The notes below the pieces were generated by a model. That model did not search any database. It was given only the letters and a program-made list of their open reading frames with translations, and was not told where the DNA came from. DNA of 64,000 nt from NCBI RefSeq assembly GCF_000214705.1, contig NC_015573.1, positions 2,177,001 to 2,241,000 on the forward strand. Reading direction: 5' to 3'. Position numbers and translations under genes: made by a program. Shown here one piece after another: positions 1,641 to 49,088 of this stretch; position 1 is the stretch's first letter; each line of letters begins with the position of its first letter. The DNA comes from Desulfofundulus kuznetsovii DSM 6115. GTDB taxonomy: Bacteria > Bacillota > Desulfotomaculia > Desulfotomaculales > Desulfovirgulaceae.

Positions 1641-2765
1641 TTACTTTTCCGGCAAACTCATAAAATGCCTGGGTTGGTAACCAGACCAGGAAACAGGGTA
1701 AAATATAGCAGCCAGGTCCTCAATTTGCTCGTCTGTTTTATCCATTGATTGATAGTACCAGGGCTGAACACACCAGATCCTTTTTTCTTTTACCGGCTTG
1801 ATATCTGCCAGGACCGGTGCTTGTTCTAGAAGTTTGGCAATGGAGGTGATGCCGGTTGACTGGGGGCTGAAAGGTATAATGAAAATATCTGCATCCTTGC
1901 CTCTGGCATAAAATTCCTCCAGGGTGATATTGGCATTGCCCGTAGCCGAACCGCCAAGGTCCTTGAAGACGTAATCGCCCCCGGCCATTTCAATCATCCT
2001 GGCCACGTAAGAGTTGCCGGCAGGTACGTATACTTTGCCCTTAAAGATGCTCCCCCAGAGGACCTTGGGCCTTGTCCCGGCAGGTACCTTCCTGGCCACC
2101 TGCTCGACGTTAGCGACCACCTGGCGGAAGTAATCATCTGCCTCCTTTTCTTTGTTGTAAAAGGCGGCCAGGAACTTCACCCATTCCACCCTGCCCAAAG
2201 GATGAGACTCCAGCCACTCGTTATCCACGGCGTAGGGGATGCCCAGTTCGTTTAACTTCTGGGCAAACTCCGTTCCGCCCATGACGTGCGTGTAGGTAAA
2301 AACTACATCCGGGGAAAGGGCCTTGATTTTTTCATAGTCCGGGGCACTGTTCTTGCCCAGGAAAGCAACCCGCCCCTTTTCCATTCCTTTCGTTACTTCG
2401 TCAATGTACCAGTCTTTTTTCTCCGTGGTTACCCCGGCAATGGTACCCAGCACCCCGAGCGGCCTGAGAAGGGCGGCCTGGGTGGTCGAGCCAACAACTA
2501 CCTTTTGTACAGGAGTATAGATAACCGGAAGGTTCCCGTAATCCGCGGGCGGCTTTTTGCCCCGGGGTACCAATAGCAACTCTCTCCCGTCGCCGTCAGT
2601 TACCTTTTTGCAGCCGGCAGGTAGATTTTCGATGCTAAAGCCAGTGGCATACTGCAGACTAACCTTTTCCCCCGGCCTGACCTTCTCCGCGGTACAACCG
2701 GCGAGGAGGATTATTAAACAAATTAAGGACAAGATAGACAAGATTCTCCCATATTTAGGATACAT
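1641..2765 (-). CDS. FecB/BtuF-like substrate-binding lipoprotein, riboswitch-controlled
   Basis: A 374-residue periplasmic-binding protein of the FecB/BtuF type, predicted to be lipid-anchored. The start at 2765 gives a signal peptide (MYPKYGRILSILSLI, then a lipobox LLAGC). An upstream in-frame start would add a non-signal extension and was not used. The body has the two-lobed pattern: a PVQKVVVGSTTQAALLRPLG opening strand, then LSPDVVFTYTHVMGG and DADIFIIPFSP segments. A cobalamin riboswitch with its own terminator lies directly upstream, so corrinoid uptake is the best-supported role. It is less like the three FecB proteins at 28-39 kb than those are to each other. Confidence 0.93.
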   Translation of the reverse strand: MYPKYGRILSILSLICLIILLAGCTAEKVRPGEKVSLQYATGFSIENLPAGCKKVTDGDGRELLLVPRGKKPPADYGNLPVIYTPVQKVVVGSTTQAALLRPLGVLGTIAGVTTEKKDWYIDEVTKGMEKGRVAFLGKNSAPDYEKIKALSPDVVFTYTHVMGGTEFAQKLNELGIPYAVDNEWLESHPLGRVEWVKFLAAFYNKEKEADDYFRQVVANVEQVARKVPAGTRPKVLWGSIFKGKVYVPAGNSYVARMIEMAGGDYVFKDLGGSATGNANITLEEFYARGKDADIFIIPFSPQSTGITSIAKLLEQAPVLADIKPVKEKRIWCVQPWYYQSMDKTDEQIEDLAAIFYPVSWSGYQPRHFMSLPEK

Positions 2766-2864
2766 GGCCAAATCAACTCCCCTAAAAGTTTCTGAGCAAA
2801 AGGCTATAATCCACCTGCTCCAGGAACCTCTTCTGCCTGGTGGCACCAGGATTTAAAACTATAT

Positions 2865-2897: not shown

Positions 2898-2954
2898 AAG
2901 GCAAAGTACTGGCTTACCACCTCCCTATCCGCGTAGGCAGCATGGTAGATAAAA

Positions 2955-3215
2955 CGGGGCAGGTCTCCTGGCTCGGGTTCATCGGAACTCCACGTCTTCC
3001 CATCCAGCACTCAGCCATGCTATGGTTCCCTCAACCGTAACCTTATCTTAGCAGTAACCAATTTCTATCAAAGCTGAAAACAATCTTACTGAGTGCTGGA
3101 CAGTGACATAATGTGGGGCCCTTCCCCCTCACAGTGGCGGGACCGCGCCGGATTTGCACCGGCTTCCCTTTTCAGCCTGCCCCCACCAGGGAAGCAGGAC
3201 ACCCCGTTTCGCACT
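2955..3215 (-). promoter_or_regulatory. Cobalamin riboswitch
   Basis: The minus strand carries the exact B12 box AGCCAGGAGACCTGCC at 2973-2958. Upstream of it are the other conserved aptamer blocks: GCCGGTGCAAATCCGGC, then GGTCCCGCCACTGTGA, and the GGGGGAAG segment. A long variable arm, closed by the stem CCAGCACTCAG/CTGAGTGCTGG, fills the usual peripheral domain. It lies between a sigma-A-like promoter with a second leader element upstream and the fecB-fecCD-fecE operon downstream, and ends in an intrinsic terminator. This is established Rfam-type evidence for adenosylcobalamin control of uptake. Confidence 0.97.
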
Positions 3216-3266
3216 ATTTAGTTGAAAAAACCACCCCGGCGTCAGGGTTCAAGCCCTTTGCGTACT

Positions 3267-3309
3267 AAAAAAAGAGCGGGGCATGTGGGGGTGACCAAGC
3301 CCCACATGC
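3267..3309 (-). terminator. Terminator hairpin at the 3' end of leader element copy 1
   Basis: On the minus strand a 10-bp stem GCATGTGGGG (3309-3300) pairs with CCCCACATGC (3290-3281) around a TTGGTCA-containing loop. It is followed by CCCGCTC and a run of seven T (3273-3267), a standard intrinsic terminator. It stands between the structured leader element and the B12 riboswitch, so transcripts must pass two or three terminators before fecB. Confidence 0.8.
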
Positions 3310-3501
3310 CAGGACGAAAGGAGGTACAGCATGCAGGGTTGACCAGACCCCTGCATACCCGTTGAGAAGGAGTCGGACCCGTTTACCGGGGATCCCGTCC
3401 GGCAAACAGGTATAGGGTTAAAAGCTAATGCCAAGGTTTAGCTTAGACCCTCGAAAGTTGGAAAGACGCTGCCTATCCTTACGGTTGGCCTCGCACCGGG
3501 G

Positions 3502-3564
3502 AAAAACAAGAAAACCATGAAAGCCTGCCTCCTTCCTCTGGAGGGAAACAGCACCTTCATGGTT
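3502..3564 (-). terminator. Upstream T-tailed hairpin of leader element copy 1
   Basis: The minus-strand stem AACCATGAA/TTCATGGTT (3564-3556 with 3521-3513) encloses a purine/pyrimidine inner hairpin and is followed by TTCTTGTTTTT. The same architecture occurs in copy 2 (48914-48964) and, with different bases, upstream of cobN (42882-42935). Confidence 0.65.
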
Positions 3565-3724
3565 GCCTCTACGCTTCTTCCTGCTTTATGTCAAAGCGAA
3601 CATTAAACCGGTGACTTCTGTCACCACTTTTATTTTACTTCACTTACACTTTCGTCGTGGTGCAAACGGTGTTTTTTAACACTATCCGCCGGGATACGTG
3701 AAACAGCACCATCCTCTGTAAATT

Positions 3725-10687: not shown

Positions 10688-12037
10688 CTAAATCCATATT
10701 GACATTTCCTCCGCATTCTTGATGATTTGTTCTTTGTAATGCAGGATCTCTGAACCGAACGGCTCCCGGTTCAGCAGGCGCAGTACCTGCTGAGTACCGG
10801 CAAAACCCAGCGTATGGTAGGCAAACAGTAAATTGCGCGCCTTAATGCCCAACCTGGCCAGCACCCGGCGGTCACCGTGACCGATATAATAGTCGGGCTT
10901 CAGTTCGGCCAGGAGCTTTTCACTCTGCAGGGCATTACCGCTCTTCACCACAAGGGGATCAACGCCGGCGGAAAGAAGGTCCTGAATATCCTTATGGTCG
11001 CCCGGAAGAATACGGTTCAAATAAAGTAAAACCGGCTTCATGCCCAGGGTGACCAGGAACCTGGCCAGGTCAAAGGCTCTCCCCTGCTGTACACCGAGAG
11101 CAAAAGTTTTGTCGGCCAACCTGCCTTCAAATTGCAGAATAGTTTCCTCTGTTTGCTTTTTCAGCGCAGCTATTTCCTGGGTAAGGTCAATGTGCAGTAC
11201 TTCGGCAATCTGCCGGTACCAGAGCTCAACCGAATCCAGAGCATAAGGCCGCTCGCAATAAATGTACTCTGTCCCGAACATTTCCTTCATTTTGTGAGCA
11301 AGAGGCAAGGCATAGTGTTCCAGAACGATGTTTAACCGGGCCTCCGGAGCACGGGCAATTTCAGCCGGGGTACTGTAAGAGGGTATCACATTCTTGATTT
11401 TGATTCCCTTGCTTTCCAACAGGCAAACCGGTTCTGTTTTTCTTCCTCCAGGCGCACGCAGGCCCAAAAGGTTAACTGATTTCTCCTCGACAGCCTGAGG
11501 CTGCATCAAATCGGCAAGGGCAAGAAAAGTACGCTCTATTCCCGGCGCCGCATCTTCACAGGTAAAGTTATCGGTATGAATCACCAGCAGCTGCGCCCTT
11601 ACTTCCGGGCGGATTTCTTCAATAGCCGCATCGAAGTCCTCGCCGATGATTTCCTGTGTGCAGGTGGTAACGACAAACAAAACCTCGGGCCGGTACTTCC
11701 TGTCCACCTCAATCACAGCCTGCTTAACTTTTTCATGGGCACCGAAAATGATGTCTTCCTGGGAAAATGGAAGAAGCAGCAAGTTATCCGGGCGGGGATC
11801 TGATGTCAAAGCCCTGAGATTGATGGTCAGCTTGGCATTATACAAACAGATGGCCGGCCCTAAAAGCAAGGCGTAACTGTTAGTGATCAATGGTACTGTT
11901 CCGGCTACTCCAAAAAAAGCACAGTGAGAGCCGGGATACTGGGCGTGAGCCGCCGGGGACAGAACGGTGTCTTCTGTAATTTCGCTTAAGCGCAGGTATT
12001 TCCGGAGTAGGGATAATTTTTCCGGTAACATCCTCAT
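10688..12037 (-). CDS. Nitrogenase component 1-like protein, set B first subunit (cysteine-bearing)
   Basis: A 449-residue NifD/NifE/BchN-like protein. The start at 12037 has GGAGG six bases upstream and is preferred to an ATG ten codons earlier with no ribosome site. Cysteines sit at residues 39 (GSHCAFFG), 64 (GPAICLYN) and 126 (TTCTQEIIGEDFD), the same spacing order as the P-cluster ligands of NifD. Three Rossmann-like lobes follow, ending with YIGHGDRRVLARLGIKA. Family members bind an Fe-S cluster and a reducible substrate, such as a tetrapyrrole in DPOR, COR and CfbD. It overlaps the interrupted second subunit by 10 bases. The substrate is unknown. Confidence 0.92.
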   Translation of the reverse strand: MRMLPEKLSLLRKYLRLSEITEDTVLSPAAHAQYPGSHCAFFGVAGTVPLITNSYALLLGPAICLYNAKLTINLRALTSDPRPDNLLLLPFSQEDIIFGAHEKVKQAVIEVDRKYRPEVLFVVTTCTQEIIGEDFDAAIEEIRPEVRAQLLVIHTDNFTCEDAAPGIERTFLALADLMQPQAVEEKSVNLLGLRAPGGRKTEPVCLLESKGIKIKNVIPSYSTPAEIARAPEARLNIVLEHYALPLAHKMKEMFGTEYIYCERPYALDSVELWYRQIAEVLHIDLTQEIAALKKQTEETILQFEGRLADKTFALGVQQGRAFDLARFLVTLGMKPVLLYLNRILPGDHKDIQDLLSAGVDPLVVKSGNALQSEKLLAELKPDYYIGHGDRRVLARLGIKARNLLFAYHTLGFAGTQQVLRLLNREPFGSEILHYKEQIIKNAEEMSIWI

Positions 12038-12253
12038 CTTTTGCCTCCGGTCAAAGAAAAATGACATACATGATCTTCATCTCTTCGCCGCAGCGGCTGC
12101 ATTTTGGGGCTTAAAACCTCCCAACCAGTCAGGCATATTTTCTGATTTGTCGACGATATAATTGTCATGAGAGGGGGTGGGGTCATAAATCCTTATTTTG
12201 TGCAAAGAGCTGTTGAGTTCAGAAGGTTACAACTCCCGATACCATAGTGACCA

Positions 12254-12278
12254 GGCCCTGAGGAGGGCCGCTTTTTTT
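12254..12278 (+). terminator. Terminator-like hairpin between nitrogenase-like sets
   Basis: GGCCCT-GAGG-AGGGCC (12254-12269) is followed by GC and seven T on the plus strand. No plus-strand gene precedes it, so its role is unclear; it may block antisense transcription into the set A nifH-like gene. The rest of the 284-base gap (12038-12321) shows no gene. Confidence 0.45.
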
Positions 12279-12321
12279 ACTTTTGCAGCCAGACTTTAAC
12301 CAGACCTGGCTTGACCATGAA

Positions 12322-13308
12322 TCATGTTTTACGTCGCGAACCTCCGGTTATGCCCGGCGAACAGACACACTCCTCATGGTTACAGGGCAAAAAGAGGCCT
12401 TGCCTGGCCAGACCGCTTCCCTGCCAGAAGCGTTCCCGTATCTTACTCTTGATTTCCTGCCCAAGCCGTAACATCTCTTCCGCAGACAGTGGCCTGGGGA
12501 TGGTCTTTTTTTCGTTTAAATAGATCCTTTCCGCAAGTTCCCTGTATAACTGGGCAGTTTCACTTTCCGGAGCATACTCGATCACTGTTTGCCCCTCTAT
12601 TTCCGCCTCGGCAATCAAGTGGCTGTTCGGCACTTTTCCTATGATCTGGCTGCCAATCCGCTCCACAAAATTAGAAATGATATCGGGTTCGTCCAGAGTC
12701 CCCCGCACGTTGTAAATCAGGCCGCCAAGAGGAGAACCGCCCCGCCTGGCCAGTTCTGCCACTCCCCTGCAAATATTATTGGCTGCATAAATGGACAGGT
12801 AATCAACACTGGTAACAATATAAATTTCCTCCGCCAGACCCATGCGCAAGGGCATGGCAAAACCGCCGCAGACCACGTCTCCCAGCACGTCGTAAATAAC
12901 TATGTCGGGCTTAAGCCTCTCAAATACCCCTATTTTTTGCAGTAGATCCATGACGATTATCACCCCTCTCCCGGCACAGCCGTAACCGGGCTTGGGGCCG
13001 CCTGCCTCAACGCAGTAAATCCCGCGATACCCTTCAAAAACAATTTCCTCCAGTTTAATAGTTTTGCCGCTAATCAGTTCCTCGATAGTGTTCTTTTCCA
13101 TCCCTTTGTCCCTTAAAACATCCAATGCTGTAGGTATCTCCCGGCCCCGGCGCAAATTACCGGTACAGTCGTGTTTTGGGTCACAACCTACCACCATTAC
13201 TCTATATCCCTTCTCCGCCAGGGCTGCCGCAACATTGGAAGAGGTGGTGGATTTACCCACCCCGCCTTTGCCGTAAAAGGCCACCTGTCTCACCCGTTTC
13301 TCAGACAT
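12322..13308 (-). CDS. NifH-like reductase of set A with cysteine-rich tail
   Basis: A 328-residue NifH/BchL-type protein. P-loop GKGGVGKST begins at residue 13, switch DPKHDCT follows, and the [4Fe-4S] ligands are Cys111 (GYGCAGRG) and Cys147 ([10 protein letters not shown]). It is longer than the set B homologue because of an insert after residue 65 and a C-terminal tail that ends in CNHEECVCSPG, an extra potential metal or cluster site. It is the third gene of set A, 28 bases after the NifK-like gene, and should be the electron donor to the two preceding subunits. Two different reductases imply two distinct enzymes rather than one. Confidence 0.94.
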   Translation of the reverse strand: MSEKRVRQVAFYGKGGVGKSTTSSNVAAALAEKGYRVMVVGCDPKHDCTGNLRRGREIPTALDVLRDKGMEKNTIEELISGKTIKLEEIVFEGYRGIYCVEAGGPKPGYGCAGRGVIIVMDLLQKIGVFERLKPDIVIYDVLGDVVCGGFAMPLRMGLAEEIYIVTSVDYLSIYAANNICRGVAELARRGGSPLGGLIYNVRGTLDEPDIISNFVERIGSQIIGKVPNSHLIAEAEIEGQTVIEYAPESETAQLYRELAERIYLNEKKTIPRPLSAEEMLRLGQEIKSKIRERFWQGSGLARQGLFLPCNHEECVCSPGITGGSRRKT

Positions 13309-13336
13309 TTTAAATCATCTCCGTTTCTGTTTACCT

Positions 13337-14596
13337 CTAAAGTGAGAATAACGAATTTACTATCTGTTCCAGCCAGGTAACCACTCCGCGAAAACCGGCA
13401 TAGGGGGCATCAGTTAAAGAAACCATATCTATAACCGGATAAGAAAATCTGATTAACGGCGCCCTGGCCTGATAGGCCAGTTTCTTGTCGAAGGTGGAAC
13501 CGAAGACCAGGTTGATATCGGCCTGCCCGATGTACTCCTCCAATTCCAGGCGGTCGGGTTCTACCATGATCTGTTCTGCCAGCCCCTTTATTGTAGCAAG
13601 CCGGTCTTCCCAAACGGGGTTTTTCGAAGTAAGCACTAACACTTTCACTTCCAGGCCTATTTCCCCGGTTAAAAATCTAGCTAAGGACACGGCTTTACCG
13701 GTACCGCCGATAACGGCACAGGACAGCCCGTACAGGCCCCTCAGGTAAAACTGGATCTTTTCAATTGCTTTTTTCACGTAATTTTGTTCTGCCAGCAAAA
13801 ATCCTTCATCAATTTCCAGCTCCAGTTTTTCTGCTACCTGACGAAGGAACTCCCGGGTTCCGGCCAGGCCGTACGGGTAGTCTACTGTAACATAGGGAGT
13901 CCCAAATTTATCGGCCATGGCCTGGGCCAGCTTTATGCCATCTCCGCCCAGGACCACATTGAGAGAAGCACGGGGGGCATTGATTATATCAATAAAGGCG
14001 CCACAGTTTAAAACAGCGTTTAGTTGTATGCCGGCAGCCCGGCAAATCCTGGCTATTTCTTCCAGGTCGGTTGTGCTTTTCAATTCATCACTTTGAAAGC
14101 CGATCAGGTTAATTGAGTTTTTCTTTTTCTCCCCGGAAACGACCATGAATTTAACCAGGCTCAACAGCGCCTCTTCATAGCCCTGCCACATGTAGCTGTG
14201 AAAACCGGCACCGCTAAAGTACATCATGGTAGCCGATACTCCGTCTTTTCGGGCCTCTTCAATCATTGCCGGCAGGTCTTCGCCTAAAATGCTGGCAGCA
14301 CAGCAGTCCATTAAAACCATAAATGACGGCCGGAAGGTATTGTGCAGCTTTTTCAGAGTTAATAAGGCTTTTCTTTCTGCTCCGTAAACCAGGTCACGGG
14401 TGTGCAGGCCGGAAAGGGCCACCCTCATGCTGGTATTGTCCGGCAGGCAGTTTAAGAGTAATGCCCCTGAATGACAGCCGGGTGGTGAGTGTAATACTAC
14501 AAAGCCGTCTTTTATACCGTGAAAGGCACGCATGGCGCCGACCATCCGGCATCCCTGGGTGGGGTCTAAAGATAAATGCTGCTTCTCCTCAATCAT
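13337..14596 (-). CDS. Nitrogenase component 1-like protein, set A second subunit
   Basis: A 419-residue NifK/NifN/BchB-like protein. Cysteines at residues 16 (TQGCRMVG), 41 (PPGCHSG) and 98-99 (MDCCAASILGED) match the order of cluster ligands in the family. The middle lobe INLIGFQSDE and the C-terminal ADINLVFGSTFD...FRGVVTWLEQIV segment are typical of component-1 proteins. It overlaps the preceding subunit by four bases (ATGA) and is followed closely by its nifH-like gene. Unlike the set B counterpart it has kept cysteines, so this heterodimer could carry a cluster bridging both subunits. N2 reduction is not suggested. Confidence 0.92.
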   Translation of the reverse strand: MIEEKQHLSLDPTQGCRMVGAMRAFHGIKDGFVVLHSPPGCHSGALLLNCLPDNTSMRVALSGLHTRDLVYGAERKALLTLKKLHNTFRPSFMVLMDCCAASILGEDLPAMIEEARKDGVSATMMYFSGAGFHSYMWQGYEEALLSLVKFMVVSGEKKKNSINLIGFQSDELKSTTDLEEIARICRAAGIQLNAVLNCGAFIDIINAPRASLNVVLGGDGIKLAQAMADKFGTPYVTVDYPYGLAGTREFLRQVAEKLELEIDEGFLLAEQNYVKKAIEKIQFYLRGLYGLSCAVIGGTGKAVSLARFLTGEIGLEVKVLVLTSKNPVWEDRLATIKGLAEQIMVEPDRLELEEYIGQADINLVFGSTFDKKLAYQARAPLIRFSYPVIDMVSLTDAPYAGFRGVVTWLEQIVNSLFSL

Positions 14597-16095
14597 TTAC
14601 CACCCTCCCCTGCGCATTCACACACGTCACAAAACCATACGGACTGGAAACATTCAGCTATATTGGCCCAGTATTCTGTTAAGTGGGGCCTTTCTTTTCC
14701 GGAACTGTAATCAAGGAGAGATAACAGGGTCTTCCGGGATACCGGCCTGTCAAAAACCCTTGCCACTTCCTTTGCTAAATTCAGGACGAATTCAAAACCT
14801 ACCCGTACGTGGTGCCTGGTGAAACGTCCCTCATCGAAAACCCGGATGCCGCGACCGAGATAGGCACTGAGATTAACCGCATTCAACCCGCAAACTGCCA
14901 GGTCAATATTGTTCTGTTTTATGGCTGCTATCTCATCCTCCGGCGCCGGGTCGAACAGGACCACCGGCTCAGAGCGCTGGTGCCTTTGGATAAAGTCTAC
15001 GACCCTCCGGATCATCTCTTCGACTGATTCCCTTTTCAAGGAACGTGAAAGGGCAGGAGTTTTTATGATCAAAACACCGCATTCCATCCCCAGTTCCTTG
15101 ACCATGATGGAACCGGCCCCCCCGTGTAAGAAAAAGGTCATGGCGATACGTTTACCCTGCAGCTTTTCTTTCCACCTAGCCAGCTCATTTTCTACCTGCC
15201 GCTTCTTTCTTTCGATTGCGGCATAAGCCGGCTCCCCTAAATCCAGCTCCCGGGCTATGTGCTGCAGAAGCTTTACCGTACCGCTTACAGTACCGGGACT
15301 GTCATCCAAAGATTTAAACTGAAACTGGTTGAGGGCCAATGATTTCATCCCGAATTTATTTTCTGCGAGCCGGCACCACTCCTGGCGCGTGTCGGTGATA
15401 TTAAGTTTCGCGCGTGAAAGTTTTCTGATCTGGTCTACAGTGCTGTCGATAAAATAGATACCGTTAATTTGGGCTCCGATTTCTTCCAGCAAGGCCTTCA
15501 GCTCCGCTATCTTAAAAGTGGCGTTATGGGCGGGCAGGGTGCAGATGTTGACGCCATGCTCCAGCTTTTCTGCCGGTTCATCCACCAGCTGGTCAATGAC
15601 TGAAGTGAGAGCATCCTGTACCCCGACCGGCTGCCGCCTGGCGTTCCCGGTCGTATAGATAACCTCACACGGGATTTCCTTCCGCACTTCTCTGATTACA
15701 CTCTCAAAGTCGTCGCCGATCAGGTCGGGAGCACAAGTGGAAATGACCAGGACCAAATCGGGCCGGTACTTCCCGGCTACCGCCTTGATGGCGTTGAACA
15801 GCCTGTCGTTTCCCCCGTAAACTGTTTCCACTTCCGTTATCCCGGAACAGGGCGTGTCAAAAAAGATATCCCAGGGACGAAACGGGTTGACTTTACGCTG
15901 AAAAGCACAGCCTACCGGGGCATGGAGCAGGGGTATGCAGTTTTTGATACCCCTGGCCACCAGCAGTGCGCCAGGCACTTTCCCGGGCACCCCGCTCTGG
16001 CGGTGCAGCGGGATGGGGGCACACATGTCGATGATCCCTGTGTAATACCCGGGATTATCGTACCGGCCGCATCCGCTATCCTGTATATCCGCCAA
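14593..16095 (-). CDS. Nitrogenase component 1-like protein, set A first subunit
   Basis: A 500-residue NifD/NifE-like protein starting at TTG behind GGAAGGTGAG. Cysteines at residues 9, 25, 53, 63 (APVGCAFQ), 83 (DTPCSGIT) and 121 (STCAPDLIGDDF) include the three canonical cluster positions (63, 83 and 121). The protein is longer than its set B relative and ends in WFCDVCECAGEGGK, a CxxCxC motif that could bind another metal centre. It opens the set A operon (D-K-H order). A pair of GGCTAGCTT repeats lies about 50 bases upstream. The enzyme class is clear; the substrate, perhaps a tetrapyrrole as in CfbCD, DPOR and COR, is inferred from the neighbourhood. Confidence 0.92.
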   Translation of the reverse strand: MADIQDSGCGRYDNPGYYTGIIDMCAPIPLHRQSGVPGKVPGALLVARGIKNCIPLLHAPVGCAFQRKVNPFRPWDIFFDTPCSGITEVETVYGGNDRLFNAIKAVAGKYRPDLVLVISTCAPDLIGDDFESVIREVRKEIPCEVIYTTGNARRQPVGVQDALTSVIDQLVDEPAEKLEHGVNICTLPAHNATFKIAELKALLEEIGAQINGIYFIDSTVDQIRKLSRAKLNITDTRQEWCRLAENKFGMKSLALNQFQFKSLDDSPGTVSGTVKLLQHIARELDLGEPAYAAIERKKRQVENELARWKEKLQGKRIAMTFFLHGGAGSIMVKELGMECGVLIIKTPALSRSLKRESVEEMIRRVVDFIQRHQRSEPVVLFDPAPEDEIAAIKQNNIDLAVCGLNAVNLSAYLGRGIRVFDEGRFTRHHVRVGFEFVLNLAKEVARVFDRPVSRKTLLSLLDYSSGKERPHLTEYWANIAECFQSVWFCDVCECAGEGGK

Positions 16096-26542: not shown

Positions 26543-28481
26543 TTATCTTCCTAACTTCGCCTTGATTTCCCGCATCTTTGCTCCCCAGTCGGCCACCTCC
26601 TCGGCGGTGAGGATGTCGATGGCGCCGCCCTGGAAGTCGCCCTTGATGTCGCCCATTCTCTCCTCCAGCCAGCCCTCGATCTCCAGGTAGTATTCTTTCA
26701 ATCCTTCCAGCACTTCGGGATCGGCATTCCACAGGCCGCGCTGGTGGGCCTCCAGCAACCGGCGGGCGATTTCTTCCAGCGCCCAGGGGTTGTGCTCTTC
26801 AAAGAAGCGGCGGTTTTCTTCGTCCAGGATAAAGGTCCTGGTGATGTCGTCAAAGATCCAGTCGTCCACTTCCTGCGTGGTGGCTTCCCAGCCGTAGACC
26901 CGGCCAATACGTTTGGAAATGTCCCCGGCGCCTTTATAACCGTGCCACTTCTGCCCCTCGATCCACTTCGGGTTCAAAAGCTTCGTCCGGACCACCCGCC
27001 GGATCTCATCGGCCAGGGTGCGTACTTCCACATGCTCCGGTTCCCTGGTGTCGCCGTAGTAGGTCCTCACCTCTTTGCCGGAGGCCACCCGGGCGGCGGC
27101 AGTCATCCCGCCGTGGGTGCCGAAGTAGCAACAGCAACCAAAGAGGTCGTACTCGTCGGTAACCACCTTGTTGTAGGTTACATCCACCGTCTTCAGGCTG
27201 GCCTGCAACTGGCGGAAGGCCTCCTTGCCAAAGACGCCCTTGCCGTAGGCGTAACCGTTCCAGTAGATAAAGATATCGGCCAGGTCCTTCTCCTCTTTCC
27301 AGGCCGAGGCGTAAACGGCCAGGTTTACCCCGGCCATGTAGGTGCCGGGCTTCGAGGCAAAAATGCGTAAAGTGGCGTCCCGCCAGGCCTGCGGGTCGTT
27401 CTGCCCGTCCAGCTGGGCCAGGGTGTGCTTGCGGACGTAGTTTTGTTCAACAGGCTCGTCAAGGGCGGCCACGGTCTGAATGGCCTCATCTAAAAGCTCC
27501 ACGCAGTTGGGGAAGTTGTCCCGGGTAATGCCGGATACCCGCACGGTCAGGTCAATGCGGGGGCGTCCCAGTTCTTCCAGCGGGATTACTTCGATACCCG
27601 CCACCCGACCGTTGGGCAGCCACCGGGGCCTCACACCCAAAAGGTAGAACATCTGCCCCAGGCCCTCGCCGTCGGCCCACATGATGTCGTTGCTCATCCA
27701 GTAAAGGGCAACTTGCCGTAGCGAGTCGAGAACCTTCCCTGGTCGGCCAAAAGCTCGGCCAGTTCCAGATTCATGAGGCCGGCCACGGCCCGGCGTAAAG
27801 AGACCTTTTCCCCGGCGTCAAAGCGCAGGATGGAGTTGATGAATTCCACCCGCCGCTCTCCTTCCGGTATCTCGCCGAAGATGTGCTGCCCGTCCTGGAT
27901 CTGCGTGTTGCGGATGGTGGAAAGCACGGCGTGGGCTTTTTCGGCAATGGCGGCAAAATTATCATGGCCGCCTTCCACGGGAATCTGCTTGTCCAGGTTG
28001 GTCTTTTTGATTTCTTCAATAATTAAATGCTCCAGAGTATGGGCCCGGGCCGGGTCGGCTATTTTGGCCTTTTCGTATTCCTCCAGGTAGCGCTCCAGCT
28101 CGGCCAGCTCGTCGTAGAGACCACCCCCGGTCATCACCGTCTGCATGTGGTCCACCAGGGTGGCATAGCTCCTCCTTTTGGCAATGGTGCCCTCCGGCGG
28201 GTTATCCGCGTTGTAGATGTATAGGTGCGGCAGGGTGCCAATGGCCAAATCCGGGTAACAATCGCCGGAGAGACCCACGCCTTTGCCGGGCAGAAATTCC
28301 AGGTTGCCGTGGAAACTACCTCCGGCCCCACTGTGGAAAGAACCCATAAAGCCGGGTCGTGGGCCACACAGACTACCGGTTTGCCCAGTTCTTTTACCGC
28401 CCTCTCCAGCTCACTCCAGGTGCTTTCGGCCATGGAACGGTAAAGAAACACCAGGTCGGCCCGGGCGAGGTCATCCAAGCC
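26543..28481 (-). pseudogene. Decayed partial duplicate of cobN
   Basis: This stretch is nearly identical to the intact cobN at 38959-42855 but has two internal deletions. At 28310-28312 a TGG microhomology joins the N-terminal part (ending VLSTVGPEVVS) to the HGNLEFLPGKG region, removing about 1,396 bases of the parent and shifting frame. At 27710/27711 about 421 bases are missing, shifting frame again. The first about 45 codons are also absent. The 3' end is complete but ends AKLGR instead of AKLESY. It begins about 28 bases downstream of a fecB-like stop. A functional product is very unlikely. Confidence 0.95.
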
Positions 28482-38958: not shown

Positions 38959-41900
38959 TCAATATGACTCCAGCTTCGCTTTGATTTCCCGCATCTTTGC
39001 TCCCCAGTCGGCCACCTCCTCGGCGGTGAGGATGTCGATGGCGCCACCCTGGAAGTCGCCCTTGATGTCGCCCATTCTCTCCTCCAGCCAGCCTTCGATC
39101 TCCAGGTAGTGTTCTTTCAATCCTTCCAGCACTTCGGGATCGGCATTCCACAGGCCCCGCTGGTGGGCCTCCAGCAACCGGCGGGCGATTTCCTCCAAAG
39201 CCCAGGGATTATGCTCTTCAAAGAAGCGGCGGTTTTCTTCGTCCAGGACGAAGGTCCTGGTGATGTCGTCGAAGATCCAGTCGTCCACTTCCTGCGTGGT
39301 GGCTTCCCAGCCGTAGACCCGGCCAATACGTTTGGAAATGTCCCCGGCGCCTTTATAACCGTGACGCTTCTGCCCCTCGATCCACTTCGGGTTCAAAAGC
39401 TTCGTCCGCACCACCCGCCGGATCTCATCGGCCAGGGTGCGTACTTCCACATGCTCCGGTTCCCTGGTATCGCCGTAGTAGGTCCTCACCTCTTTACCGG
39501 AGGCCACCCGGGCGGCGGCAGTCATCCCGCCGTGTGTACCGAAGTAGCAGCAGCAACCAAAGAGGTCGTACTCGTCGGTAACCACCTTGTTGTAGGTCAC
39601 ATCCACCGTCTTCAGGCTGGCCTGCAACTGGCGGAAGGCCTCCTTGCCAAAAATACCCTTGCCGTAGGCGTAGCCGTTCCAGTAGATAAAGATATCGGCC
39701 AGATCCCTTTCCTCTTTCCAGGCCGAGGCGTAAACGGCCAGGTTTACCCCGGCCATGTAGGTGCCGGGCTTCGAGGCAAAGATGCGTAAAGTGGCGTCCC
39801 GCCAGGCCTGCGGGTCGTTCTGCCCGTCCAGCTGGGCCAGGGTGTGCTTGCGGACGTAGTTTTGTTCAACCGGCTCGTCCAGGGCAGCCACGGTCTGAAT
39901 GGCCTCATCTAAAAGCTCCACGCAGTTGGGGAAGTTGTCCCGGGTAATGCCGGATACCCGCACGGTCAGGTCAATGCGGGGGCGTCCCAGTTCTTCCAGC
40001 GGGATTACTTCGATACCCGCCACCCGACCGTTGGGCAGCCACCGGGGCCTCACACCCAAAAGGTAGAACATCTGCCCCAGACCTTCGCCGTCGGCCCACA
40101 TGATGTCGTTGCACATCCAGTAAAGGGCAATGTTCTCCGGATAGCGGCCTTCATCAACCAGGTGTTTTTCCAGAATTTTTTCCGCCAGGCGCCTTCCCAC
40201 TTCCCAGGCCGCCCGGGTGGGCACCCGGTGGGGATCCAGGGAATAAAAGTTGCGGCCAGTAGGCAGTATATCGTCCCTGCCGCGGGTGATCAGCCCCGAG
40301 GGCCCCGCGGGGATGTATTTCCCGTCAAAACCAGCCAGCAGCGATTCGATCTCCTTAGAACCTTCAATACGCTCGTTCAAATCCAGCACCCGTGGTAAAA
40401 GGGCGTTTACTTCCGGCAAAGCCCCGGGGCAGACAAACTTATCCCCCAGGACCTCTTGAGCAAAACCCGGATCCACTTCCTGTCCCTTTAAGAACCGGCC
40501 AATAAAGGCTTTAGCCGCAGCATCAATTTCTTCCAGGAGGGCACCATAGGACTTGCCGTAGCGAGTCGAGAACCTTCCCTGGTCGGCCAAAAGCCCGGCC
40601 AGATCCAGATTCATGAGGCCGGCCACGGCCCGGCGCAAAGAGACCTTTTCCCCGGCGTCAAAGCGCAGGATGGAGTTGATGAATTCCACCCGCCGCTCTC
40701 CTTCCGGTATCTCGCCGAAGATGTGCTGTCCGTCCTGGATCTGCGTGTTGCGGATGGTGGAAAGCACGGCGTGGGCTTTTTCGGCAATGGCGGCAAAATT
40801 ATCATGGCCGCCTTCCACGGGAATCTGCTTGTCCAGGTTGGTCTTTTTGATTTCTTCAATAATTAAATGCTCCAGAGTATGGGCCCGGGCCGGGTCGGCT
40901 ATTTTGGCCTTCTCGTATTCCTCCAGGTAGCGCTCCAGCTCGGCCAGCTCGTCGTAGAGACCACCCCCGTTCATCACCGTCTGCATGTGGTCCACCAGGG
41001 TGGCGTAGCTCCTCCTTTTGGCAATGGTACCCTCCGGCGGGTTATCCGCGTTGTAGATGTAAAGGTGAGGGAGGGATCCGATGGCTAAATCCGGGTAACA
41101 CTCGCCGGAGAGGCCCACGCCCTTGCCGGGCAGAAATTCCAGGTTGCCGTGGGTGCCCACATGAACGATCACGTCCACGCCAAAGTCCCGCTCCAGGTAG
41201 CGGTAGGTGGCCAGGTACTGGTGCGGCGGCGGGATGTCCGGGTCGTGCAGGATTTTACAGACCTGACCATCGCAGCGGGCACCGGCACAGCCCCGCTTCG
41301 GCTGCACGCATACCACAGCGTTGCCATATTGAACTCCGGTAATGACGATTTTCCCCTCGTGGACCATGGCCGCGGGTACGCCGTTTTTGGCTTCTCCCGG
41401 CGGGGCACCCCAGGCTTCAGTAAGCCGTTCCTTCACCCGCAGGGATAAATGATCAAACCACTGCCGGTACTCTTCCACGGGCATGAGCTTTAACGCCCCG
41501 CCCTTGCTGATAATTTCATCGGTGGTAGTCCAGCGGAATTCCGAGATGGCCTTCCGGTTCATAATGGTGTCGATTAACTCTTTGCCGCCGGCGGGAACTT
41601 CCACGGAATAACCCGCTTCCTTCATACGGCGCAAAATCCTGGCCACGCTCTCCAGGGTATCCAGGTTGGCTCCACCGCCCACCGTGGCTTCCACCGAGGC
41701 ACAGGGATTGTTGTGCAGGATAAATGCCACTTTTCGCTCGTGGACCGGTTTTTGCGCCAGTTCAACCCACCTGGCCACCCGGTCCACCAGGTGCCGGCAG
41801 CGCTCTTCCACGGGAACGCGGATTTCCAGTTCCCCTTCACGCCTGGCTCCGGCAATGAAAACCGGCTCGATGACCCCCTCAAACTCGGGCAGAGCTACAC

Positions 41901-42855
41901 ACCAGGCAATGTCCCGGTTTAAACCCTGGGGATCCTCTACCCATTCCTCCACCGTGCGGTAAAAGGAAGTTACAGGCTGGAAGACGGGCACGCCCAGCCG
42001 CTGTAAGAGGGCCACTCCTGAAGAGGCCACGTCCTCACGCAGGAAGTCATCGGTTCTGGTGCGGGCTTCCAGAAAGAAGGAGATTAACTTAACCAAAGCG
42101 TTGATCCGGGACCGTCCCCCGGAGTTGAAGAAATATTCCCTGACCACTTCTCCGGAACCCCTGGTGCCCAGTTCGGCATCTTTCAGGGAATAGCAAAAAG
42201 CAGGAATTACCTTTAATCCTTTTTCTTCCATCAAACGAATTAATAGGTCCTCTACAGCCAGGTTGCCGTTTACCCAGTTGTTGCGGCCAAAGAGAAGGCC
42301 CACGGTGGGAGCGGAAGCGACCAATGATTGGGGCCAACCGGCTTGACTGAGGTATGTCTCGTACCAGGACAGGTAATCTTCTACCGTAGCAAAACAACCA
42401 GAAGCGGCCGGGTGGTAAATACCCTCCCAGGGGAAGGTAAGCGGCTCGCTGTATTCCAGCCGTTCACCCAGAACTTCGACAGCCAGATACCGGAGCATGT
42501 GGGCAAAGTTTTCTTTACCGCCCTGAACTATATATGTGTAGCATCTGGAAACCACATCCGGCCCCACTGTTGAAAGGACCCACAAAGCCGGATCATGGGC
42601 CACGCAAACCACGGGCCTGGCCAGGTTTTTTACTGCCTTTTCCAGCTCATCCCAAACGGTTTCTGCCGTAGAACGGTAAAGAAACACCAGATCGGCCCGG
42701 GCCAGGTCATCTAAAGCTAAAGCCAGGTCTTCTTTACCTTCATCTAAAAAGCGGGCCGAGTAAACCTTAACCTCCAGCTCGTCCCTGACCAGCTCTGCGG
42801 CCCGCCGCATGGTAGTGGTGTGGCTATGCCACATCACGGCGGCAATTTTTTTCAT
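38959..42855 (-). CDS. cobN: CobN/ChlH-family metal chelatase large subunit
   Basis: A 1,298-residue protein of the CobN/BchH/ChlH family, which holds the tetrapyrrole during metal insertion (cobalt into hydrogenobyrinic acid diamide, magnesium into protoporphyrin) or, in HmuS-type relatives, metal removal. The ATG at 42855 follows GGGGGTGG. Visible signatures are MKKIAAVMWHSHTTT at the N-terminus, HVGTHGNLEFLPGKGVGLS at mid-length with the family His, and FGCCCYFGTHGGMTAA near residue 1070. AAA+ and AAA+/VWA partner genes lie at 45043-48174. It leads the operon into FecB-FecCD. A T-tailed hairpin lies in its leader. Whether it inserts or removes metal, and which metal, cannot be read. Confidence 0.95.
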   Translation of the reverse strand: MKKIAAVMWHSHTTTMRRAAELVRDELEVKVYSARFLDEGKEDLALALDDLARADLVFLYRSTAETVWDELEKAVKNLARPVVCVAHDPALWVLSTVGPDVVSRCYTYIVQGGKENFAHMLRYLAVEVLGERLEYSEPLTFPWEGIYHPAASGCFATVEDYLSWYETYLSQAGWPQSLVASAPTVGLLFGRNNWVNGNLAVEDLLIRLMEEKGLKVIPAFCYSLKDAELGTRGSGEVVREYFFNSGGRSRINALVKLISFFLEARTRTDDFLREDVASSGVALLQRLGVPVFQPVTSFYRTVEEWVEDPQGLNRDIAWCVALPEFEGVIEPVFIAGARREGELEIRVPVEERCRHLVDRVARWVELAQKPVHERKVAFILHNNPCASVEATVGGGANLDTLESVARILRRMKEAGYSVEVPAGGKELIDTIMNRKAISEFRWTTTDEIISKGGALKLMPVEEYRQWFDHLSLRVKERLTEAWGAPPGEAKNGVPAAMVHEGKIVITGVQYGNAVVCVQPKRGCAGARCDGQVCKILHDPDIPPPHQYLATYRYLERDFGVDVIVHVGTHGNLEFLPGKGVGLSGECYPDLAIGSLPHLYIYNADNPPEGTIAKRRSYATLVDHMQTVMNGGGLYDELAELERYLEEYEKAKIADPARAHTLEHLIIEEIKKTNLDKQIPVEGGHDNFAAIAEKAHAVLSTIRNTQIQDGQHIFGEIPEGERRVEFINSILRFDAGEKVSLRRAVAGLMNLDLAGLLADQGRFSTRYGKSYGALLEEIDAAAKAFIGRFLKGQEVDPGFAQEVLGDKFVCPGALPEVNALLPRVLDLNERIEGSKEIESLLAGFDGKYIPAGPSGLITRGRDDILPTGRNFYSLDPHRVPTRAAWEVGRRLAEKILEKHLVDEGRYPENIALYWMCNDIMWADGEGLGQMFYLLGVRPRWLPNGRVAGIEVIPLEELGRPRIDLTVRVSGITRDNFPNCVELLDEAIQTVAALDEPVEQNYVRKHTLAQLDGQNDPQAWRDATLRIFASKPGTYMAGVNLAVYASAWKEERDLADIFIYWNGYAYGKGIFGKEAFRQLQASLKTVDVTYNKVVTDEYDLFGCCCYFGTHGGMTAAARVASGKEVRTYYGDTREPEHVEVRTLADEIRRVVRTKLLNPKWIEGQKRHGYKGAGDISKRIGRVYGWEATTQEVDDWIFDDITRTFVLDEENRRFFEEHNPWALEEIARRLLEAHQRGLWNADPEVLEGLKEHYLEIEGWLEERMGDIKGDFQGGAIDILTAEEVADWGAKMREIKAKLESY

Positions 42856-42872
42856 GAAACCACCCCCTGTCC

Positions 42873-42935
42873 ATAAAATAAAAGCCACGAAGACAGTAAA
42901 CCCCTTCGTAAAGGAAAGTTCCGCCTTCGTGGCTT
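42873..42935 (-). terminator. Attenuator-like hairpin in the cobN leader
   Basis: On the minus strand AAGCCACGAAG (42935-42925) pairs with CTTCGTGGCTT (42892-42882), then TTTATTTT follows. An inner hairpin (CCTTTACGAAGG) lies within the loop, as in the hairpins at 3502-3564 and 48914-48964. Position before the cobN start suggests attenuation. A further hairpin GGCGACCGGAGTCGCC lies upstream at 43007-42992. Confidence 0.7.
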
Positions 42936-43181
42936 ATTACTTAAAAATATTAAGCTTTAAAAGTGGCTATTATTTGAAAATGTCACGAGGTGGCGACTCC
43001 GGTCGCCTTTGTAATAATACTGGCTTAGTTTCCCTCTATTCCACTTACGGTGGAAATATTCTACGCAAAGTGAAAAATTCCTCCCGAAATAAAAATTTTA
43101 CTAATTAAAAATTTTTCAGGTATCTTTTCCCGCAGGATGAGGCAAACTTCAGGATAAAAAAATTTTAAGGAGGATATGCAA

Positions 43182-43415
43182 ATGAGCTGTTCCAGCATCA
43201 AACACCGTTTTGAAGAAGAAAGGCAAAAGGGTTTAACCTTCGAACGGGCCATGGAAATGTACCGGGAAGTGGAAGGTTCGCTGGCCGCGCACCGCCTGGA
43301 ACTGGAAGACCTGCAACGCACAAATGCCGATCCGGGCCGCATCAGTCATCTGCAGGCACATATAAGCGACGGCGAAAAATTGCTCAAGGAGATGAAACAG
43401 CTTCACCTGCATTAA
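43182..43415 (+). CDS. Small coiled-coil protein of unknown function
   Basis: A 77-residue charged protein, mostly predicted helix/coiled coil (FERAMEMYREVEGSLAAHR, then ISHLQAHISDGEKLLKEMKQ). The ATG at 43182 lies eight bases after a perfect GGAGG, so it is very likely translated. It is the only plus-strand gene in the 26-64 kb part besides the IS remnant, set between the divergent cobN leader and a convergent exporter gene. It ends in LHLH. No family was recognised. Confidence 0.7.
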   Translation: MSCSSIKHRFEEERQKGLTFERAMEMYREVEGSLAAHRLELEDLQRTNADPGRISHLQAHISDGEKLLKEMKQLHLH

Positions 43416-48208: not shown

Positions 48209-48643
48209 TTAACCCTGTCCCGCGCACCTGGCAGCCATTATAGTCTTCACCCGTTCTACCAGAAAATCAATCAAATGGGGTAGCGGCTCGGCAACTACCC
48301 CCACTATCTCTACATTGGAGCGATTTAGGTGCAAAAGAATCTTTCTCGCAGGGCTCTTCGCCACCGCTTCGGCCATGGCCGGGGTGAATTCCCCCAGCAT
48401 ACTGTGGGGCATCAGCACGGCAATGGTGCCCACAATAATGTCCACCTTATCCGCATTGTAAATAACGGCATTTTCGCCGCTGGCTGCATCGTTGGCCCCT
48501 GCCTTGAGCATCAATGCCGCCGCCATGGCGTTGGTACCCAGGGCGATGATTTCCACATCGTCCTTGGGCAGGGCCTTCCGCAACTTTTCCACGATGACCC
48601 GGCCAATGCCCCCGCCCTGCCCGTCAATTACTGCTATACGCAT
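48209..48643 (-). CDS. DUF3842 family protein
   Basis: A 144-residue DUF3842 protein with a nucleotide-binding-like start, MRIAVIDGQGGGIGRVIVEKL (GxGGGxG loop). The family is widespread in Firmicutes and has no established function. ATG 48643 has GGAGGAG ten bases upstream; a longer in-frame opening that runs into the repeated leader element is rejected. It lies 35 bases before the chlD-type gene, and directly downstream of the second copy of the structured leader. Confidence 0.88.
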   Translation of the reverse strand: MRIAVIDGQGGGIGRVIVEKLRKALPKDDVEIIALGTNAMAAALMLKAGANDAASGENAVIYNADKVDIIVGTIAVLMPHSMLGEFTPAMAEAVAKSPARKILLHLNRSNVEIVGVVAEPLPHLIDFLVERVKTIMAARCAGQG

Positions 48644-48668: not shown

Positions 48669-48964
48669 AAAAAAAGAAGTGGGGGCATGTGGGGGTGACC
48701 AGTCCCCACATGCCAGGACGAAAGGAGGTACAGCATGCAGGGTTGACCAGACCACTGCATACTCGTTGGGAAGGGGTCGGACCCGTTTACCGGGGATCCC
48801 GTCCGGTAAACAGGTATGAGGTTAAAAGCTAACGCCAAGGTTTAGCTTAGGACCCCCGCAGTTAAACCGCGGCTGATGCCGCACTGCCTGCCCCGGGCAG
48901 GCAAAAATAAGAAAACCATGAAAGCCTGCCCTCCTCCCTGGAGGAAAACAGCACCTTCATGGTT
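48669..48964 (-). promoter_or_regulatory. Repeated structured leader element, copy 2
   Basis: Second copy of the element at 3267-3564. It has the same two T-tailed hairpins: the upstream one with stem AACCATGAA/TTCATGGTT (48964-48956 with 48922-48914), the downstream one GCATGTGGGG/CCCCACATGC-like with T-run 48675-48669. The 9-bp hairpin GTTTACCGG/CCGGTAAAC and the paired loops with CTGGTCA are present. The variable stem differs completely between copies (CCGCGG- and GCCTGCC-containing here) while its position is kept. It directly precedes the DUF3842-chlD-chlI operon, so it likely controls it in cis. Confidence 0.6.
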
Positions 48965-49088
48965 GCCTGTACTCTAAACTTTGAATTCAATTGCCGAATA
49001 GTGATCCCTAAATGGTCCCTGAATCCAGACGGCTTCTGCCGCCCATTAATTTCATAAAAGTTGTTCGCCATCAAGTTCAAAGTTCCTG

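Follow-up and report, generated by a model that had tools for sequence, protein, structure and literature searches.

A leader RNA class, found mainly before nickel-related genes, that includes the cobN leader of Desulfofundulus kuznetsovii

In a stretch of 64,000 nucleotides from Desulfofundulus kuznetsovii DSM 6115 (contig NC_015573.1, positions 2,177,001 to 2,241,000; hereafter the window), a gene for a CobN-like chelatase is preceded by a hairpin-containing leader resembling an element that occurs twice elsewhere in the same stretch. Do the three leaders belong to one regulatory RNA class, and what might such a class control? The proposal of the first-pass annotation, that the cobN leader is a third member of one class, is borne out by R3, a held-out covariance model of 99 matches taken only from other families and phyla and none from the window's family. 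We consider it rather probable that the class is cis-regulatory and serves as a nickel-linked transcription attenuator, in which an RNA-binding protein, probably dimeric or oligomeric, would act as reader by holding a small hairpin called P0. The elements and their parts are as follows.

38962-42855, minus strand: CobN/BchH-type metal chelatase large subunit, 1298 amino acids, behind the cobN leader (NCBIfam NF004646 above cutoff; Pfam PF02514)
42871-43010, minus strand: cobN leader, complete class member (R3, 78.9 bits, E 2.9e-11; R1, 106.8 bits)
42992-43007, minus strand: P1 hairpin of the cobN leader, GGCGAC[CGGA]GTCGCC (from the sequence)
42923-42933, minus strand: P0 of the cobN leader, GCC[ACGAA]GGC, within the 5' arm of the terminator (class-wide complementarity at -1/+10 and -2/+11)
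42882-42935, minus strand: predicted terminator hairpin of the cobN leader, AAGCCACGAAGG...CTTCGTGGCTT (fold and covariation)
about 42916-42901, minus strand: P3, the apical hairpin of that terminator (fold)
42872-42881, minus strand: U-rich tract 3' of the terminator hairpin (from the sequence)
48902-49046, minus strand: copy 2 (R3, 81.6 bits), upstream of DUF3842 and ChlI/ChlD-type genes
49043-49028, minus strand: P1 of copy 2, GGCGGC[AGAA]GCCGTC (from the sequence)
48963-48953, minus strand: P0 of copy 2
48964-48914, minus strand: predicted terminator of copy 2, with CCATGAAGG starting at 48962
48209-48643, minus strand: DUF3842 protein behind copy 2 (Pfam PF12953, E 2.4e-55)
3501-3628, minus strand: copy 1 (R3, 71.0 bits), 5' of a cobalamin riboswitch
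3625-3610, minus strand: P1 of copy 1, GGTGAC[AGAA]GTCACC (from the sequence)
3564-3513, minus strand: predicted terminator of copy 1, CCATGAAGG...CTTTCATGG starting at 3562

The cobN leader consists, in this order, of P1 with an NGRA loop, an AT-rich linker of about 59 nt, a terminator hairpin whose stem starts with CCAYGRAGG and which contains an inner CCTT..AAGG, and a U tract, followed by a Shine-Dalgarno sequence and the cobN ATG at 42855. The NGRA-looped P1 and a terminator hairpin with a stem starting CCAYGAAGG are common to all three elements. Every string that had been quoted for a shared hairpin architecture is present in the sequence, as are the paired base changes between the P1 hairpins of the cobN leader and copy 1 and the looser P1 match upstream of copy 2. 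Copies 1 and 2 each form part of a longer paralogous unit, about 85% identical across some 310 nt.

Evidence that the class is real comes mainly from covariance models. R3 identifies exactly three sites in the window, its remaining matches there being opposite-strand echoes of the same hairpins, and a further model, R1, finds the three window sites and many in relatives; another, R2, comprises 68 members. A covariance search had been named beforehand as the result that could overturn the proposal, and it placed the shared hairpins far above chance. In a structure-aware alignment of 19 leaders, two-sided changes were present in 12 of 21 pairs, and in the held-out set of 99 members in 17 of 21, with P1 showing them at all six pairs across the class. 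The covariation score of the held-out set was 0.576, against 0.220 for shuffled and at most 0.154 for slid alignments; alignments A3 and A5 are fitted to a model and the related sequences in them are not independent. Four congeners retain the cobN leader in front of their cobN gene, and Desulfovirgula has an element upstream of a cobN homologue (L035:4291, minus strand). DNA searches of 31 related genomes showed that P1 together with the CCAYGAAGG hairpin recurs before other genes too. Further members before cobN-like genes, as had been anticipated, do exist, but the class is not cobN-specific and its regulon is mainly nickel-related.

The element is present in 1-15 copies per genome in Desulfotomaculia, Clostridia, Negativicutes and Desulfobacterota. 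In the window's own class, matches at E 1e-4 or better were found in 58 of 113 genomes, with up to 14 per genome, and among the sampled genomes of the phylum of Desulfocicer the element was present in 12 of 148. A pattern scan of named genomes gave at least 118 loci, about 7 matches being expected by chance according to our own estimate, and some of the matches are plain chance within genes (L174 and L199, for instance). The loci listed include Desulfotomaculia, Syntrophomonas, Sporomusa, Clostridium, Tepidibacter, Romboutsia, Geosporobacter, Thermincola, Desulfobacter, Desulfocicer and others.

With respect to the genes preceded by the element, these include nikB/opp2-type permeases, CbiM/NikM, DUF4198, LarC/LarE, FmdE, DUF3842 and CobN/ChlID. 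For the 87 intergenic elements among the matches listed, the most frequent first genes encode DUF4198 (13), CbiM (9), NikB/Opp2B-type permeases (8) and methyltransferases (8), followed by FmdE (5), DUF3842 (4) and SBP_bac_5/NikA (4), and more rarely by Peripla_BP_2 (3), ECF (3) and TonB receptors (2). LarC stands behind one element and LarE behind two, their identity having been read from the sequence. In the window's own genome, additional copies precede genes for a Nik-type permease and for a BtuF-like protein, among others. There are also members before genes without an evident nickel link, such as an amino-acid permease and SAM methyltransferases. The element is sited 5' of operons, in many cases 13-40 nt from the start codon. 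These contexts support the view that it heads a regulon that is large, spans two phyla or more and is concerned mainly with nickel; the class would then yield a list of likely nickel genes, namely DUF3842, FmdE, DUF4198 and one class of SAM methyltransferases.

Of the 61 non-redundant members, all except two have a terminator stem that starts with CCAYGRAGG, and CCAYGAAGG is found in 52 of the 61. The 5' arm of this stem doubles as an inverted repeat, NNCC[AYGRA]GGNN (loop in brackets), which can form the small hairpin P0 that the first-pass annotation had overlooked; examples are AAACC[ACGAA]GGTTT, GGCC[ACGAA]GGCC, TATACC[ACGAA]GGTATT and ATTGCC[ATGAA]GGCGAT. The P0 pair -1/+10 is possible in 60 of 61 members (49.5 when shuffled), base -1 being also pairable with the base following the terminator 3' arm in 60 of 61. 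The pair -2/+11 is present in 47 of 61 (30.3 when shuffled) and, in the held-out set, in 71 of 90 versus 50.6, slid registers being at background; the pair -3/+12 follows with 54 of 90 versus 42.8. P0 and the terminator are mutually exclusive, as the covariation shows, so that the leader is bistable. Since a plain terminator has no use for the P0 pairing, P0 is read as an antiterminating alternative. In isolation, the P0 of the cobN leader has a predicted stability of -3.9 kcal/mol. The copy 2 transcript is predicted to fold into P1, P0 and P3 when the terminator 3' arm is removed, whereas with this arm the terminator dominates by far. P0 is thus much weaker than the terminator and would need a stabiliser.

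P1 carries an NGRA loop closed by a C-G or U-A pair. Among 121 elements found by a pattern that is blind to P1, an upstream (N)NGRA hairpin (tetra- or pentaloop, at least 5 bp, at most 120 nt upstream) was present in 61, compared with 4.1 in shuffles, while hairpins of this type 280-400 nt upstream were at background level. Across the class, the distance between P1 and P0 lies anywhere between 6 and about 100 nt; P1 is lacking in many elements, some members having no recognisable one. The terminator apex, P3, often shows the same loop (GRA-G in 32 of 113). The leader therefore consists of two or three small hairpins in an array, all capped alike. In three loci (L139 and L246, both of Desulfosporosinus, and L243) a single terminator contains two consecutive P0-type hairpins, ACC[ATGAA]GGT ... 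AACC[ATGGA]GGTT, and these support the hairpin-array reading.

From this arrangement we infer termination, nickel as the signal and a reader acting in trans. The nascent RNA would form P1, an optional upstream hairpin, and then P0 and P3. If P0 were held, the 5' arm of the terminator would be unavailable and RNA polymerase would read on; if it were not, the long stem and the U tract would end transcription. A protein that binds RNA, probably as a dimer or oligomer, would recognise the repeated GRAG-capped loops, holding P0 when nickel is short and letting go when it is plentiful. Like-capped modular hairpins with loose spacing fit recognition by a protein better than an aptamer.

The best current candidate for the reader, though it cannot be the sole reader, is the CooT family (Pfam PF10133; solved structure 6fan). 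CooT is a small nickel-binding protein, of a family once annotated as predicted RNA-binding. In the window's class, CooT is present in 55 of 58 element-positive versus 28 of 55 element-negative genomes (Fisher p 8e-8, uncorrected for kinship), and it adjoins elements in eight loci. This co-occurrence may be a mere sign of a nickel-dependent lifestyle. A CooT search of 30 named carriers gave no match in five (Mobilitalea, Fervidicella, Clostridium sporosphaeroides, Anaerovorax and C. vincentii), so no single tested protein explains all. A single-sequence AlphaFold model of CooT was poor (pLDDT 72). A more far-reaching reading, which we regard as doubtful, would see in the class the means by which Clostridia-like bacteria and Desulfobacterota regulate nickel independently of NikR, namely a hairpin-array antiterminator with a nickel-binding reader such as CooT; nickel loading would loosen the reader's grip, uptake genes would be turned off, and CobN/ChlID-type chelatases would belong to the nickel and not the cobalt economy.

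The absence of every tested protein family from some carrier also speaks for a riboswitch, in which the RNA would bind Ni2+/Co2+ or a nickel/corrinoid cofactor through the GRAG-capped loops without any protein. The loop letters are highly conserved across two phyla, and tandem small hairpins are able to sense ligands. However, neither a junction nor a linker is conserved, the spacing of P1 is variable and P1 itself frequently absent, and although nickel should turn uptake genes off, the terminator wins unaided, so that an effector seems required for switching on. We regard the riboswitch as somewhat unlikely.

Elements clustered in gene islands, sometimes in tandem, could also be ordinary intergenic intrinsic terminators whose likeness is that of a repeat family (MITE or REP-like) devoid of regulatory role. 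This is very improbable in view of their position 5' of operons and near start codons, the compensatory stems inside single genomes, the conservation of a P0 superfluous for a plain terminator, and the recurrence of the same gene families behind elements in distant phyla. We give next to no credence to a DNA operator pair of imperfect palindromes serving a transcription factor since, although P1 and P0 are inverted repeats, their stem letters vary freely with compensation and their loops are fixed, the opposite of an operator, and the P0 bases are shared with a U-tailed hairpin.

The regulon also raises the possibility that nickel is handled by the window's CobN/ChlID chelatases and nitrogenase-like genes. 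Nitrogenase-like proteins (NifE/BchN/CfbD-like) and several CobN-like genes share a region with nickel-type attenuators (10688-16095 and 26543-63958), and a possible nickel-tetrapyrrole pathway is worth checking. The blocks 26555-28478 and 38974-42714 are repeated, being 82-99% identical, which suggests that part of the cobN gene has been duplicated. A 77-amino-acid protein starting MSCSSIKHRFEEE... is encoded divergently from cobN (43182-43412, plus strand) and had no match in Pfam or NCBIfam. It adjoins elements in seven loci from several Desulfotomaculia, and was rejected as a general reader because, among the loci examined, it was found near elements in Desulfotomaculia only.

Downstream of the attenuators of copies 1 and 2 lie additional features.

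2941-3221, minus strand: cobalamin riboswitch 3' of copy 1 (Rfam RF00174, 124.6 bits)
1644-2846, minus strand: substrate-binding protein of Peripla_BP_2 type, encoded downstream of both copy 1 and the B12 riboswitch (Pfam PF01497)
3268-3454, minus strand: second conserved leader motif 3' of copy 1, recurring in other families
48672-48858, minus strand: second conserved leader motif 3' of copy 2

Copy 1 and the cobalamin riboswitch stand in tandem (2941-3628, minus strand) before a Peripla_BP_2 (BtuF-type)/FecCD pair, which makes a two-input leader possible. The second motif, directly 3' of the attenuator in both copies and absent from the cobN leader, contains AGCTAAACCTTGGCRTTAGCTTTTAACC, a GTTTACCGG/CCGGTAAAC hairpin, ACCTCCTTTCG and hairpins with YTGGTCA loops; it was also found in six other loci, and its two window copies gave zero Rfam matches. 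Its ACCTCCTTTCG looks like an anti-Shine-Dalgarno sequence, and the motif is possibly a further switch, acting on translation.

The RNA class is apparently undescribed so far. Rfam 15 at gathering score placed no family over any of the three elements, and the same scan of 138 kb from carriers gave nothing beyond cobalamin, RNase P and tRNA; permissive scans of the elements returned noise only. No description of a nickel, cobN, larC or DUF4198 leader RNA was found in literature lying largely outside subscription journals, and the genome-wide RNA surveys examined make no mention of nickel or cobalt. The elements are not cobalamin riboswitches, RF00174 matching only at 2941-3221 and at none of the three. 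The NiCo (czcD) riboswitch, with which the class shares the nickel/cobalt theme, is a four-way junction serving efflux genes; it gave no Rfam match at gathering score in the 138 kb of carriers or in the window. Guanidine-II (mini-ykkC) RNAs likewise have two small like-looped hairpins with a variable linker, their loops being ACGR. The P1 loops of the class (AGAA/TGAA) are unable to form the CpG loop-loop pairs of guanidine-II, for which there was also no Rfam match, and P1-P0 kissing of that type was discarded on inspection since the second loop base lacks complementarity.

CsrA/RsmA binding hairpins also present a GRA-type core in a small loop closed by C-G. The CsrA motif needs GGA in a small hairpin loop, whereas GAA predominates in the class, and CsrA was rejected as general reader because it is absent from three carriers, one of them Desulfocicer, each with several elements. 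A close parallel is provided by ANTAR target RNAs (EutV/NasR dual-hairpin antiterminators), with small like-looped hairpins, one of them overlapping the terminator, mutually exclusive antiterminator and terminator, and several leaders per genome. These RNAs have two hexanucleotide loops with A1 and G4, on stems of roughly 3 bp, and a linker of about 5-12 nt, and Desulfotomaculum acetoxidans is among the reported ANTAR regulons (PMC3369931). In contrast, the class has an NGRA tetraloop, an AYGRA pentaloop, a P1 of about 6 bp or more, a spacing of 6-100 nt, and nickel rather than nitrogen genes. With loops and spacing misfitting and the ANTAR protein absent from six carriers, the class resembles ANTAR-type dual-hairpin antiterminators in its presumed working but does not belong to them. 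The NikR regulon has overlapping target genes (nik, NikMNQO), but NikR is a DNA-binding repressor and was rejected as regulator, NikR (NikR_C) being absent from 22 of 24 carriers. Comparative genomics found NikR in less than half of the organisms that have NikABCDE, which implies control without NikR (PMC2667541). The RNA class could fill this gap in anaerobes with nickel-dependent CO dehydrogenases, hydrogenases and lactate racemases and, if a protein does read it, that reader would be, to our knowledge, the first known nickel-responsive RNA-binding antiterminator.
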